From Candidatus Methanoperedens sp. (GTDB lineage Archaea > Halobacteriota > Methanosarcinia > Methanosarcinales > Methanoperedenaceae): a stretch of 64,000 nucleotides of DNA. The position numbers and the translations under genes are program-made. The notes below the pieces were generated by a model. That model did no database searches, was not told the DNA's origin, and saw nothing but the letters and a program-made list of their open reading frames with translations. Positions 2,715 through 53,890 of the stretch are shown one piece after another (within the stretch, counting starts at the first letter, position 1; the number at the start of each line of letters is the position of its first letter). Where the stretch lies: assembly GCA_030650845.1 (NCBI GenBank), contig JAUSDC010000202.1, positions 1-64,000 of the forward strand, in the 5' to 3' direction.

Positions 2715-2995
2715 TCGTCAGCATCTGTATGTGCAAAGGGATCTGGTAGATCAATGCACGCTGACAAAATCCGATCATTTATATCTTCAATCTCGTCCCA
2801 CATTGACTTAATTTTCTGAGTAAACTTTTCCACCACGATATCCTCGCCGCAACACAAAATCACGACCCCACCATCTTTGTCATTAAAAACCACACCAGAT
2901 AGACCCAAGAATTGCCCTGTATATTCAACAGCAGATATAAACCTGGTATTCTGTACATTGCCGGTAACGGATATGTTGTGGCATTTGACTGGCAT
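2711..2995 (-). CDS. Acylphosphatase-like protein lacking the catalytic arginine
   Basis: A 94-residue single-domain protein with the acylphosphatase layout. It has an N-terminal GNVQNTRFI where the family has GxVQGVxFR, then GLSGVVFNDKDGGVVI where the family has GxVxNxxDGxVE. The catalytic Asn (VVFN) is kept, but the phosphate-binding Arg of the GxVQGVxFR loop aligns with Ile. It may therefore bind rather than hydrolyse acyl phosphates. Its stop overlaps the start of the small downstream reading frame. Length is normal for the family. Confidence 0.6.
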   Translation of the reverse strand: MPVKCHNISVTGNVQNTRFISAVEYTGQFLGLSGVVFNDKDGGVVILCCGEDIVVEKFTQKIKSMWDEIEDINDRILSACIDLPDPFAHTDADE

Positions 2996-49010: not shown

Positions 49011-49124
49011 ATGCTGCACACAAAATTATTTAGACCTTGCAGGCATCAATAAGCAAAGAATTTAAATATGTACGATATTTATTAGTCATAACTTCCACTT
49101 AAAGCATATATTTTGAGGTGTACT

Positions 49125-51713
49125 TTGGCTAAAAAATCCATCAGAAAGAAGGCAGTAAGAACTGAAAAAATACAAGATGAAAAGAAAGAAGATAAAGTAG
49201 ACGGTTTTTTCAAAACGAAGTATCTTACATATATTGTTCTATTTGCAATATTCCTCTTCTCTTTCTATATTAGAGGGATTGTACCAATACAAAATGTTTT
49301 TAGCAGAGGGATCGTAGGTTTTGCAATGGACGACTCTGTATTCCAGATGAGGTTAGTGGAGAATACTATTTACTTTTTTCCAAACAGGATATTTTATGAT
49401 GCATTTACACTATACCCCTCTGGAAGTCAGTTGAGCTGGGGTCCTCTATTTGGTCAGATGATCGCGTTTTTCTCATTATTCATAGGTTTCATAACAAATA
49501 ACTGGAATCCCACAATTGCCGGAATGCCATCTCAATTTATTATTGATACGGTGGGAGCTTTCTTTCCGGCTGTTTTTGGGGCATTGATAATATTCCCGGT
49601 ATATGTTATCGGAAAAGAAGTACTTGATGAGAAGGCAGGGCTGATCGGGGCATTTCTAATATCAATATTGCCTGGTCAGTTCATATCAAGATCAGTGCTT
49701 GGATTCACGGATCACCATATAGTAGAGGCATTTTTTACAACTCTGATGATGATGTTTTTCATTATGGCAATTAAGAGAGCTGAAAACATCACGTTTGATC
49801 ACTGGCTGAACAAGGATTGGACATCATTAAAGACACCGATAGCATATTCCATTCTTGCTGGTATCACGTTCGGAGCTTATCTTCTTACATGGACATATGG
49901 TGTATTATTCGCAGTTATATTTGGAATTTTTATTGTTGTTCAGTATATAATAGACCATTTTAAAGGGAAATCCACGGAGCACCTTGGTATCGTGGGTATT
50001 ATAGCGTACGTAGTGGCAATGATAATGGTATTACCATACGTAGATATCAGCAATGGTTTTTCACCGGGAACATATTCTCTCATGCATCTTACAGTAACTG
50101 GTGGAGCTGCATTGGTTTTCGCTTTTTTTAGTCTTGTATCCAGGGAAATGAATAAAAGAAACATGAAGGGAGATTATTACTTGTTGTTCGTTTCAGGAAC
50201 GATTATTATAAGTCTGATAATTATTAATATATTTATCCCAGGTCTTTATATGGATTTCATATTCAAGTCAGGAGGTGGGTTGTCAATAGGAGAAGCTGCT
50301 CCGACATGTGGCGATTTTTCCCTGGGTTCGATAATTAATTGCCAAAATGCAATAGGGCAATTTGGTTATAATTATTATTTAGCTTTCATTGGTATTTTAA
50401 TACTTGGTTATTTTATCATGAAAAAATCAAAAGCTGAATATACATTATTGGCTGTCTGGAGCATTTTTATTTTAGTTATCATGTTAGCTCAGAACAGATT
50501 TTCATATTATTATGCTGTGAATGTTGCAATCCTTGCGGGTTTTCTGGGTTCCATTATATTAAACTTAGCCGATTGGAAATCATTTGACTCAAATAGTCTT
50601 GTTGAATGCGCCAGGAAAATTAGATTTCAACATATCTTTTCTTTAATTCTTGTAATTGCATTTATTGCATTCCTCCCGGTAAATGCATCACCATATGATA
50701 TGACATGCGGCAGCTGGCCGTGGTCATGCGAACAAACAAAATGGGGCGCCATTGGAGAAGGAGAATATGAATGGCACGACGCACTAAACTGGATGAGAGA
50801 TAATACTCCAGACCCGGGTTTAGATTATTACGCTATTTATGAGAAACCAAAGAATGGCACATATCCTTATCCAGATACTGCTTACGGCGTCATGAGCTGG
50901 TGGGATTATGGTCATATTATCACATACTGGGGACACAGGATCCCGAATGCAAATCCGTTCCAGGCAGGTATAGGTGGTGGCTCATCACATGCGCCGGGAG
51001 CATCCACTTTCCTGATAGCACCAACAGAAGAAAAAGCAAATGAAGTTCTCGATAAGCTTGGAATAAATGGGAAACCAGGTGCAAGATATGTCGTTAGTAA
51101 TGCTTACATGGCATATTCCATATTGGAAATCTTTGCGATATGGGATCAATCAAACGAGGGGTATCGTGTTGCTGTGCGAACATCCCAGGGAACAATAGGC
51201 GCTCCATCTATGAAATATTTCAATACTATGGAGGCAAAGCTCCATATATTCGATACAAATGGTCTGCATAATTACAGGCTTGTGCATGAATCCACACCCA
51301 ATCCGTATGTCCGTGGCGGTAATGAAGAAAAATGGTATAAGAATGTTTATAACGTATTATATGGAGGCAATCTTCCAGTAGAGGATTCCGGCTATGCCAA
51401 GATATTTGAATTAGTAAAAGGCGCCAACATCACTGGACGCGCCCCACCGAACAGCACAGTTACTATCTCAAACACTATAAAAACAAACATCGGAAGGACG
51501 ATCCAATATTCGCAGACAACAACTTCATCCTCTGACGGAACTTACGGATTCACTGTCCCGTATTCAACAACAGGTCCGATCGCAGGAGAGACAAATTTCG
51601 ATACGAAGCCAGTAGGTCAATATTCCGTGACCGCTGGAAATGTCACGAAGCAGGTCGATGTTGGAGAAAGGGATGTCCTTGATGGTGGAACTGTGACAGT
51701 TGATCTAAAGTGA
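49125..51713 (+). CDS. aglB: Dolichyl-(phospho)oligosaccharide-protein glycosyltransferase AglB (STT3)
   Basis: A protein of 862 residues from TTG 49125, which has GAGGTG 4 bases upstream; a TTG at 49113 is also in frame. It has a Lys/Arg-rich cytosolic start, about thirteen membrane helices, and GFAMDDSVFQMRLVENTI as the first catalytic Asp loop. FTDHHIVEAFF is the second acidic motif, and VMSWWDYGHIITYWGHR is the invariant WWDYG sequon-binding motif. A C-terminal beta domain starts near residue 765. It transfers the lipid-linked glycan to Asn-X-Ser/Thr of S-layer and other surface proteins, and logically completes the locus. Confidence 0.96.
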   Translation: MAKKSIRKKAVRTEKIQDEKKEDKVDGFFKTKYLTYIVLFAIFLFSFYIRGIVPIQNVFSRGIVGFAMDDSVFQMRLVENTIYFFPNRIFYDAFTLYPSGSQLSWGPLFGQMIAFFSLFIGFITNNWNPTIAGMPSQFIIDTVGAFFPAVFGALIIFPVYVIGKEVLDEKAGLIGAFLISILPGQFISRSVLGFTDHHIVEAFFTTLMMMFFIMAIKRAENITFDHWLNKDWTSLKTPIAYSILAGITFGAYLLTWTYGVLFAVIFGIFIVVQYIIDHFKGKSTEHLGIVGIIAYVVAMIMVLPYVDISNGFSPGTYSLMHLTVTGGAALVFAFFSLVSREMNKRNMKGDYYLLFVSGTIIISLIIINIFIPGLYMDFIFKSGGGLSIGEAAPTCGDFSLGSIINCQNAIGQFGYNYYLAFIGILILGYFIMKKSKAEYTLLAVWSIFILVIMLAQNRFSYYYAVNVAILAGFLGSIILNLADWKSFDSNSLVECARKIRFQHIFSLILVIAFIAFLPVNASPYDMTCGSWPWSCEQTKWGAIGEGEYEWHDALNWMRDNTPDPGLDYYAIYEKPKNGTYPYPDTAYGVMSWWDYGHIITYWGHRIPNANPFQAGIGGGSSHAPGASTFLIAPTEEKANEVLDKLGINGKPGARYVVSNAYMAYSILEIFAIWDQSNEGYRVAVRTSQGTIGAPSMKYFNTMEAKLHIFDTNGLHNYRLVHESTPNPYVRGGNEEKWYKNVYNVLYGGNLPVEDSGYAKIFELVKGANITGRAPPNSTVTISNTIKTNIGRTIQYSQTTTSSSDGTYGFTVPYSTTGPIAGETNFDTKPVGQYSVTAGNVTKQVDVGERDVLDGGTVTVDLK

Positions 51714-51803
51714 AGTTCTAAAATAACCGAAAAATCCATGAATGAATGAAATCCAGATAAAGGCACCCAGAGTGACGCCTCTGGAGGGGTGATTTCATAT
51801 TAA

Positions 51804-51851
51804 ACCCCGCCAGCGGCGGCGCCTCACCGGGGTCTGGGGTCGCAACCCCAG
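51804..51851. repeat. GC-rich double hairpin after aglB
   Basis: Two inverted repeats are nested side by side: ACCCCG (51804-51809) with CGGGGT (51828-51833), and CTGGGGT-CGCA-ACCCCAG (51834-51851). The composition is far more GC-rich than the AT-rich block that ends at aglB. It looks like a dispersed REP-type or mobile-element remnant and precedes the fdhD fragment. Confidence 0.55.
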
Positions 51852-51884
51852 CGCCGTTTAGATAATATTGAGCGAAAGTGTAAC

Positions 51885-51952
51885 GGCGCAGTCTTTGTCG
51901 CAACAAGAGGTATCCCTGCACGCGCCGCTTTCATCACCATTCCAGCAGACTG
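51885..51952 (-). pseudogene. Fragment of a second fdhD copy
   Basis: This 68-base stretch matches fdhD 52557-52624 at 65 of 68 positions on the same strand. It encodes the identical peptide QSAGMVMKAARAGIPLVATK plus TAP. The three differences are all synonymous. Coding similarity stops on both sides. It is thus a remnant of a duplicated, recombined or converted fdhD. Confidence 0.8.
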
Positions 51953-51977
51953 ACCTCTTGAAAGTTAGTACATCGAA

Positions 51978-52406
51978 ATGAATCAGTTATATTTATTATG
52001 TAATAGTTCTATGAATTTATTAATGGATACCCAGACTGTTAAAATGATTCTTGAAGGTGCGAAAGATACCGTAAATACTTTTTTAAATGAAATTAAATCC
52101 AGGAAATATGTTTCAGGAGTTGAAATTGATAGTTTGCAACAAAAAGAACTATCTATGGATTTTGACATTCCGGTTCGATTCGTCAAGCTTTCTACAGATG
52201 AATTGTATGATATAGATAGAAAACTTGGAATTGGAAATGATTTACTTGCTGATATTAAGACAAATACAATTGATATTAAAGATGGTGTTTATGGTTTAAA
52301 TACAAGATTTGATTTATTTTTTGAACAACAAAAAGGATTTAATAAAAATATTATTGAGCATAACTTTCGTCTTGAAAAAATTCTTGAAAAACTTTCAGAG
52401 AAATAA
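51978..52406 (+). pseudogene. 5'-truncated acylphosphatase-type protein with coiled tail
   Basis: A 142-codon frame. The first useful part, NLLMDTQTVKMILEGAKDTVNTFLNEI, aligns with the second half of the acylphosphatase fold (NxxDGxVxxxxEGxxxxVxxF). It continues into the long C-terminal tail known from Methanosarcina acylphosphatase-like proteins (YDIDRKLGIGNDLLADI, then a coiled coil). The N-terminal GxVQGVxFR half is missing; its place is taken by the fdhD fragment and non-family sequence. A shorter product from the ATG at 52011 or 52023 could still be made, but the enzyme would be dead. Confidence 0.55.
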
Positions 52407-52450
52407 ATTTTTTTGATTGTTTTTGCTCTTACCAACGATGCAGACAAACT

Positions 52451-53194
52451 TCATGACACCCTTTCAGGATGTGTGAATACCGACATCCGATCCTGCGATA
52501 CAAAACATACCAGGCAGACCCCAGTCCTTTCTGCCGCCTCGATCCCGGTATTTAAGGGCGCGGTCTTTGTCGCAACAAGAGGTATCCCTGCCCGCGCTGC
52601 TTTCATCACCATTCCAGCAGACTGGCGCCCAGAAGATAAAAGGAAATGACTACCGAGGTCTATATCTTCGATGCATGCCCGCCCCACCACTTTATCAAAA
52701 GCATTATGTCGCCCCACATCTATCGTTTTTACCACGCATTCGCCCCTATTATTTACAAGGCATGCCGCATGTGTCCCATGCGTCTTTTTATAGATATCGG
52801 ATTCCAGGAACCTTAAACTCTTTTTTATTACATCACTGTTAAAGACTACATCAGAATAAACCTGGATCGGTTCATTCTCGTCCCATCGTATGCCCACACA
52901 ACCTGAAGAACGCAGCTCGCGCCAGAGTTCAATATGTTCAGAGGGTTCGATCTCCACTTTTATTATTTTCCCATCAATCAGGATATCATTTATATCTTTT
53001 CTGGATTTAATTATCCCCTCGCAGATGAGATAGCCAAGCGCCAGTTCGTCAAGCATCTCAGGTGTAGCAAGGATCGAAGCCAGGCGCACCCCGTTCACGA
53101 AAAGGTCAATGGTATCTTCAACTGCTACAGAATATGACGCTTTATGTTGTCCATCGCCCAATTCTGTTGCCTGGTAATCCATGGTGTACGCCAT
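52451..53194 (-). CDS. fdhD: FdhD-type sulfurtransferase for formate dehydrogenase / molybdo- or tungstoenzymes
   Basis: A protein of 247 residues. FdhD carries sulfur to the Mo/W-bis-pterin cofactor of formate dehydrogenase. It has LATPEMLDELALGYLICEGI, the C-terminal VGRHNAFDKVVGRA and LLSSGRQSAGMVMKAARAGI. The catalytic loop reads RSSGCVGIRW: a single Cys where E. coli FdhD has CGVC. The gene begins directly after radC's stop, so the two are one transcript. No formate dehydrogenase gene lies in the window. Confidence 0.92.
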   Translation of the reverse strand: MAYTMDYQATELGDGQHKASYSVAVEDTIDLFVNGVRLASILATPEMLDELALGYLICEGIIKSRKDINDILIDGKIIKVEIEPSEHIELWRELRSSGCVGIRWDENEPIQVYSDVVFNSDVIKKSLRFLESDIYKKTHGTHAACLVNNRGECVVKTIDVGRHNAFDKVVGRACIEDIDLGSHFLLSSGRQSAGMVMKAARAGIPLVATKTAPLNTGIEAAERTGVCLVCFVSQDRMSVFTHPERVS

Positions 53195-53890
53195 TTAAAT
53201 ATGCCCTGCCTCTTTCATGCTGAAGTGCCGCCCATCGCCTATTATGACATGATCAAGCACATCGATCCCCATTATTTTACCGGTCTCTGCCAGTTTCTTT
53301 GTTATCTCGATGTCTTCCCTGCTTGGTGTTGGATCGCCTGAGGGGTGGTTGTGCACCACGATTATGTGAGCTGCAGATTCTGCAAGAGCCATCTTGAACA
53401 CCTCCCTGGGATGGACGATATTGGCGTTAAGAGAGCCAATAGAGATGGTTTCCTCTTTTATTATCTGGTTCTTGGTGTCAAGACACAGTTCTATGAACAT
53501 TTCTTTTTTCTGTTCTCTCATTCTGGGGTATATCAGCCTGTACACGTCTTCGGGCGAGTTGATCTTTTGTTTAGACTCTTCACTGAATGTTTCAAGCCTC
53601 CGTGCGATCTCAAAACAGGCTGCGATCTGCGCGGCTTTGCTTTCCTTAATACCATGTATCTGTGTCAGTTTGGCAATATTTGTCTGTGAAAGCTGCTTTA
53701 GATTATACATCGACAACAGTCTCTGGGACAGGTTTATCACGTTCTCCTGCTTTGTTCCAGTCCTCAGGATTATCGCCAGGAGTTCTGAATCTGCAAGTGA
53801 GGCAGCTCCGCTTTTCAGTAGTCTCTCCCTTGGTCTTTCCTCTTTTTGCATGTCAAGTATCCTGACTTTGTATTCCTGCATAAACCCCAC
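53195..53890 (-). CDS. radC: RadC/JAB1-family protein
   Basis: A protein of 231 residues. The N-terminal helix-hairpin-helix UPF0758 region has RPRERLLKSGAASLADSELLAIILRTG and LTQIHGIKESKAAQIAACFEI. The C-terminal JAB/MPN domain has the metalloprotease-like HNHPSGDPTPSREDIEIT. The family is widespread in bacteria and in Methanosarcinales; despite its name a role in repair is not proven. The ATG at 53881 (MQEYKV) is an alternative start. It is cotranscribed with fdhD. Confidence 0.94.
   Translation of the reverse strand: MGFMQEYKVRILDMQKEERPRERLLKSGAASLADSELLAIILRTGTKQENVINLSQRLLSMYNLKQLSQTNIAKLTQIHGIKESKAAQIAACFEIARRLETFSEESKQKINSPEDVYRLIYPRMREQKKEMFIELCLDTKNQIIKEETISIGSLNANIVHPREVFKMALAESAAHIIVVHNHPSGDPTPSREDIEITKKLAETGKIMGIDVLDHVIIGDGRHFSMKEAGHI

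Follow-up and report, generated by a model that had tools for sequence, protein, structure and literature searches.

A short, synonymously diverged copy of part of fdhD among truncated pieces between AglB and fdhD in Candidatus Methanoperedens

Introduction

How did a 72-nt copy of part of fdhD, differing from the gene at synonymous positions only, come to lie in the spacer next to the intact gene in a Candidatus Methanoperedens genome, and what does it tell of the allele from which it was copied? An initial annotation of this DNA had read the place as a recombination scar at the edge of a glycan locus. The window referred to below is the whole stretch analysed, 64,000 nt (positions 1 to 64,000 of contig JAUSDC010000202.1, forward strand), and coordinates given without a prefix are positions within it.

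Results

Layout of the spacer and of the locus in relatives

The spacer lies between the gene for an AglB-type oligosaccharyltransferase (49113..51713, plus strand; Pfam STT3/AglB) and an intact fdhD (52451..53194, minus strand; Pfam FdhD-NarQ, 203 bits), whose upstream neighbour is radC (53195..53890, minus strand; identified by Pfam). Of the relatives found, STD1_19 is the closest at this locus; its FdhD is 94% identical in amino acid sequence to that of the window, and in both radC touches fdhD and AglB is convergent to fdhD. The gap between AglB and fdhD is 737 bp in the window; in STD1_19 it is 20 bp between stop codons, part of a palindrome, with no insert. Read from AglB, the spacer of the window consists of 40 nt of no traced origin, 35 nt of a repeat termed repA, 94 nt of a dispersed repeat termed element B, the fdhD scrap, about 80 nt of no traced origin, the remnant of an acylphosphatase-like gene, and 44 nt up to the fdhD stop codon. 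This block as a whole was found in none of 39 other genomes, with 11 candidates scored per genome. Viral contigs yielded no exact element-B core, no scrap junction and no relative of the remnant ORF, and among the papers listed none dealt with this locus or with such a repeat.

AglB stands directly beside fdhD in two of the ten fdhD loci compared, those of the window and STD1_19, so that gain of the whole insert here and its loss in STD1_19 are indistinguishable. In G014, AglB is likewise convergent to fdhD, but 2.6 kb of sequence with two long frames, one of them mobB-like, lies between the two genes, and an 11-kb stretch of that genome has no element-B match. The distance from radC to fdhD is about 600-640 nt in seven other relatives. 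In OWC_0015, fdhD follows radC and lies between genes that, reading their sequences, we take to be mobA- and mobB-like, the former separating radC from fdhD and the latter coming after fdhD (L157:2270-4770, compared with window 52451-53890); neither is beside fdhD in the window or in STD1_19.

The repA piece (51754..51788, plus strand) is truncated, and all 11 copies found in seven relatives (L106-L116) continue rightward differently from the window. Most of these copies start with AACCGCAGAT, and this end of the repeat resembles the reverse complement of the right end of element B.

The fdhD scrap

The 72 nt at 51881-51952 match positions 52553-52624 of the intact gene with 68 identities (94%; E = 2.4e-26 in a search of the genome itself, which returned these two matches only). 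The scrap, on the minus strand, holds the codons for QSAGMVMKAARAGIPLVATKTAPL; it has the orientation of the intact gene and lies about 600 nt from its counterpart there. It covers 24 of the 247 codons of fdhD, and thus contains neither the full FdhD/NarQ (PF02634) domain nor an intact frame. Homology stops sharply at 51881 and at 51952; the left junction shows 1-3 nt of microhomology, which is non-diagnostic, and the exact junction sequence in the window is GAAAGTGTAACGGCGCAGTC. The 68-base copy with 65 identities and three synonymous differences that had been annotated earlier corresponds to 51885-51952, inside this larger repeat, and the fourth difference is at 51884. The scrap had also been described as following a GC-rich double hairpin and abutting an acylphosphatase-type gene: the hairpin is there, as the copy of element B at 51788-51881, and the gene is indeed a neighbour, but 25 nt separate the scrap from its ORF.

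All four differences fall at third codon positions of fdhD and all are synonymous (gene/scrap GCA/GCG, CGG/CGT, ACC/ACT and CCC/CCG), giving four changes at 19.5 synonymous sites and none at 52.5 nonsynonymous sites. Between the gene and STD1_19, pS is 0.25 over the same 72 nt, and pS is 0.32 and pN 0.033 over the whole of fdhD. The probability that all four would be synonymous is about 0.006 if every change is assumed to have fallen at random in the scrap, and about 0.03, by arithmetic from the site counts, if both copies drifted. The pattern from which selection on the source copy had been concluded is therefore real, but the conclusion is weaker than it was put; taken alone, a synonymous bias in four differences is only suggestive.

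Comparison with other alleles adds to this. STD1_19 has the state of the gene at three of the four differing sites and that of the scrap at the remaining one. The full-length fdhD of OWC_0015 has the state of the scrap at two of the four variant codons (GCG and CGT), so at least two of the scrap variants occur in a full-length gene, which supports the earlier view of a source copy under selection. The exact scrap allele turned up in no potential donor genome. Scrap and gene differ from each other at four positions and from STD1_19, for the two copies, at seven and five; they have two positions in common that are absent from both STD1_19 and OWC_0015.

A search of the assembly for a second full fdhD found none. 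The proposal of a second functional copy in the genome thus lacks support, the assembly holding the intact gene and the scrap, and such a copy was rejected as source of the scrap. A further, distant FdhD-like gene with 32-40% identity is present in 12 of 23 same-genus relatives searched, and none was found in the genome of the window; that level of identity excludes these genes as a source. From radC through fdhD, identity to STD1_19 is 86-97% in each of 14 full 100-nt bins, with 33 matching positions among the final 40 nt, and has no step along its length.

AglB as a mosaic

The identity of AglB to STD1_19 is 83-88% per 100-nt bin in the last 300 nt only (51413-51713), and about 50-80% before. 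To G014 it is 57-81% throughout, with 67-70% within the last 300 nt or so. By these profiles, AglB outside its last 300 nt or so is of a different allele type from that of STD1_19, with a likely crossover near 51413, and the change of identity shows that this locus has undergone exchange with other lineages. Some 340-470 nt separate the crossover site from the scraps on its right. The suggestion of a recombination scar is thereby supported, with the scar next to the border of the exchanged glycan locus rather than on it.

The acylphosphatase-like remnant

By Pfam and by alignment with relatives, the 142-codon ORF at 51978..52406 (plus strand) belongs to an acylphosphatase/coiled-coil-like family, of which it keeps the C-terminal part but not the catalytic half. 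Against the Pfam acylphosphatase profile (PF00708) it matches positions 35-83 of 85 only, with 14.2 bits, below the cut-off of 22.5, while the N-terminal acylphosphatase domain of four full-length relatives scores 52-58 bits; the gene had rightly been said to lack its first half. Residues 20-142 align with full-length relatives (53% identity to the G006 copy), the homology starting only near 52035. The N-terminal half of the relatives, including the motif VQDIGFR, which we take to be catalytic, is absent from the ORF and from 51000-52500, and acylphosphatase activity is accordingly not expected of the ORF. That half is present in frame at 17 of 19 other loci with relatives of the ORF and missing at two (L037, L042); a further copy in the same genome, on C109, likewise lacks it and has no Pfam match. 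Loss of this half is thus recurrent.

Against its closest relative the remnant looks protein-like, with dN 0.19 and dS 1.37 over 76 codons, values that span the time before truncation too. The missing N-terminus did not turn up as an orphan half in the genome: a search with the N-terminal half of the G006 copy gave six matches at E 0.1 or better, each lying within an open frame of 97-202 codons. A weak match to this half (E = 0.02) lies in the window at 2864-2992 (minus strand), in a 97-codon open frame that is perhaps an ordinary small acylphosphatase.

Element B

The copy of element B in the window (core at 51788..51881, plus strand) was compared with the other copies of this dispersed repeat. 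It is truncated at both ends; several others have about 40 nt more on the left and about 30 nt more on the right. The genome contains at least 40 matches (40 of 57 candidates scored; loci L074-L102), and seven copies occur in 464 kb made up of the window and other stretches of the same genome. Among the matches listed, full-length copies are 85-95% identical to that of the window. In a class-wide sample, 23 of 199 genomes have a match, this one included: they comprise all 22 listed genomes of the same genus, some with weak matches (E up to 8e-4), and one of the two from a sister genus; none belongs to any other genus.

In 26 aligned copies the core is almost invariant, with one of 15 pairs changed on both sides, and covariation therefore speaks neither for nor against element B as a folded RNA under selection. 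Window 51788-51960 folds little better than its shuffles (z = -1.18). A scan of 51600-52700 with Rfam 15 gave two chance-level matches (E 1.6 and 4.9), below gathering score, and seven loci with longer copies gave no match at that score. An integron attC or cassette site, considered since copies cluster, was discarded on mixed orientation and spacing and the lack of consensus core sites by eye. Comparison of three copies with STD1_19 and OWC_0015 found no clean empty site; one of these copies is common to STD1_19, and so is not recent.

Other scraps

A second gene scrap adjoins a copy of element B on C83 (L082:1387-1482, equal to L177:1078-1173). It consists of 96 nt of a small gene, in sense orientation to that gene, with an intact copy on C154 (L171:584-679), and all seven differences from this copy are synonymous. 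The source gene, which we take to be zinc-ribbon/antitoxin-like, has no Pfam match.

Capture of gene pieces by element B was assessed from second matches to 16 right flanks, chosen from 29 copies by the absence of the tail motif, and to 16 control pieces, the first of 27 outside ORFs of at least 90 codons and otherwise unconfirmed as intergenic. At least five of the flanks and at least six of the controls had second matches, both counts being lower bounds (40 of 67 candidates scored for the flanks, 40 of 170 for the controls), and a role of element B as a capture device is not supported. The flank at L082 is the sole clear gene scrap among the five: two (L099 and L102) come from paralogous gene regions, one (L094) is non-coding, and the match of L093 is 32 nt long. 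One control, from L078 (query 464-550), contains a different dispersed repeat, roughly 80 nt long, that matches some 20 other places in the genome.

A census of scraps covered 534,717 bases of the genome (16% of the assembly), partly selected for element B, with matches to element B, to other multi-match segments and to doubtful ORFs set aside. It returned the fdhD scrap, the L177/L171 scrap, a 91-nt scrap of an acylphosphatase gene with four synonymous and three nonsynonymous differences, and a piece of a presumably HtrA-like gene with nonsynonymous changes by eye; the last two show that scraps are not all synonymous-only.

Discussion

The reading that we favor, at somewhat better than even chances, is that recombination left a scar at 51714-52450, composed of truncated pieces and lying between AglB and fdhD; its fdhD piece would have come from the functional allele of a close relative and been joined with little or no homology. 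A scar is indicated by several unrelated truncated pieces side by side where STD1_19 has no insert; that it took up a piece of a kin fdhD is suggested by the synonymous-only differences of the fdhD scrap, two of whose variants recur in OWC_0015, by the second scrap, synonymous in all its differences, by the even identity of radC-fdhD, and by the exchange with other lineages seen in AglB. The donor would have carried an fdhD allele somewhat less diverged than that of STD1_19, and the scrap would have been joined to the end of the repeat copy in the manner of homology-facilitated or short-patch illegitimate recombination (HFIR and SPDIR) after uptake of DNA. We infer the origin of the scrap outside the cell, the mode of its joining and its present lack of function.

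A possible but distinctly less probable history keeps the scrap at home: the end of the resident fdhD, or a longer piece later deleted, was duplicated in place, after which homologous recombination brought a new allele into the gene, or synonymous changes accumulated there under selection. The closeness and common orientation of scrap and source would fit this, as would the two positions that they share against both relatives and their differing less from each other than either does from STD1_19; AglB, moreover, shows that exchange with other lineages has occurred here. Against it, no step in identity is seen within radC-fdhD, and with STD1_19 as outgroup it is the scrap that has changed at three of the four sites. 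An error of assembly or a mixture of strains, with the contig misjoined at the multi-copy element B, we hold to be improbable, even though the assembly is a draft of 258 contigs with 4.85% estimated contamination and several contigs (C198, C226 and C109, for example) have an end within or adjacent to element B. A misjoin at a repeat would not be expected to leave a 72-nt piece with four variants that only the gene matches in the assembly and that is followed by further sequence, and the full-length copies of element B listed are 85-95% identical to the copy in question.

A function for the junction seems very improbable. The plus strand of the scrap is antisense to the fdhD mRNA across 72 nt at 94% identity, so element B and the scrap might be transcribed together as an antisense RNA that regulates fdhD, and the near-invariance of the hairpin core could be read in the same way. 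Against this stand the negligible covariation, the unremarkable folding score, the lack of any Rfam match at gathering score, whether for the window copy or for the loci with longer copies, the sense orientation of the other gene scrap beside element B, and the absence from the window copy of the 40 nt or so on the left, present in several other copies, that could hold a promoter. Equally far-fetched, in our estimate, is a broader version, with element B either a family-specific RNA that is transcribed or a site in Methanoperedens where recombination is frequent; its right end would acquire short tails from genes again and again, and the antisense tail in the window could bind fdhD mRNA.

On our preferred account of a scar holding a piece of kin fdhD, the process itself is of an ordinary kind, and it gives a modest but testable indication that spacers in this genus take in short fragments of kin DNA. 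Were it right, uncultured methane-oxidising archaea could take such pieces into the spaces between their genes, a process seen here at the level of single bases, and the source of a piece could be read from differences that are synonymous only. The work also draws attention to element B, a repeat abundant in Methanoperedens on which our Rfam scans and literature searches gave nothing.

Three known systems invite comparison. Archaeal acylphosphatases (PF00708) with a C-terminal coiled-coil-like extension have their C-terminal part in common with the ORF of the window, which differs in lacking the N-terminal half that bears the catalytic motif. HFIR and SPDIR are known from bacterial experiments. 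They resemble the present case in that short pieces are joined where homology is slight or absent and mosaics result, and the product, a short patch that lacks extended homology at one end or at both, is what the window contains; the difference is that here the product alone is seen, in an archaeal draft genome, with no donor, uptake or homologous anchor shown. One paper (PMC7192050) presents both as outcomes of transformation with relaxed needs for identity. The third system is the ordinary one of duplication and deletion, which leave gene fragments and pseudogene remnants in intergenic DNA; these are like the scrap in being non-functional pieces of a neighboring gene in a spacer, whereas the scrap of the window has four synonymous differences only and sits in a chain of unrelated truncated repeats.
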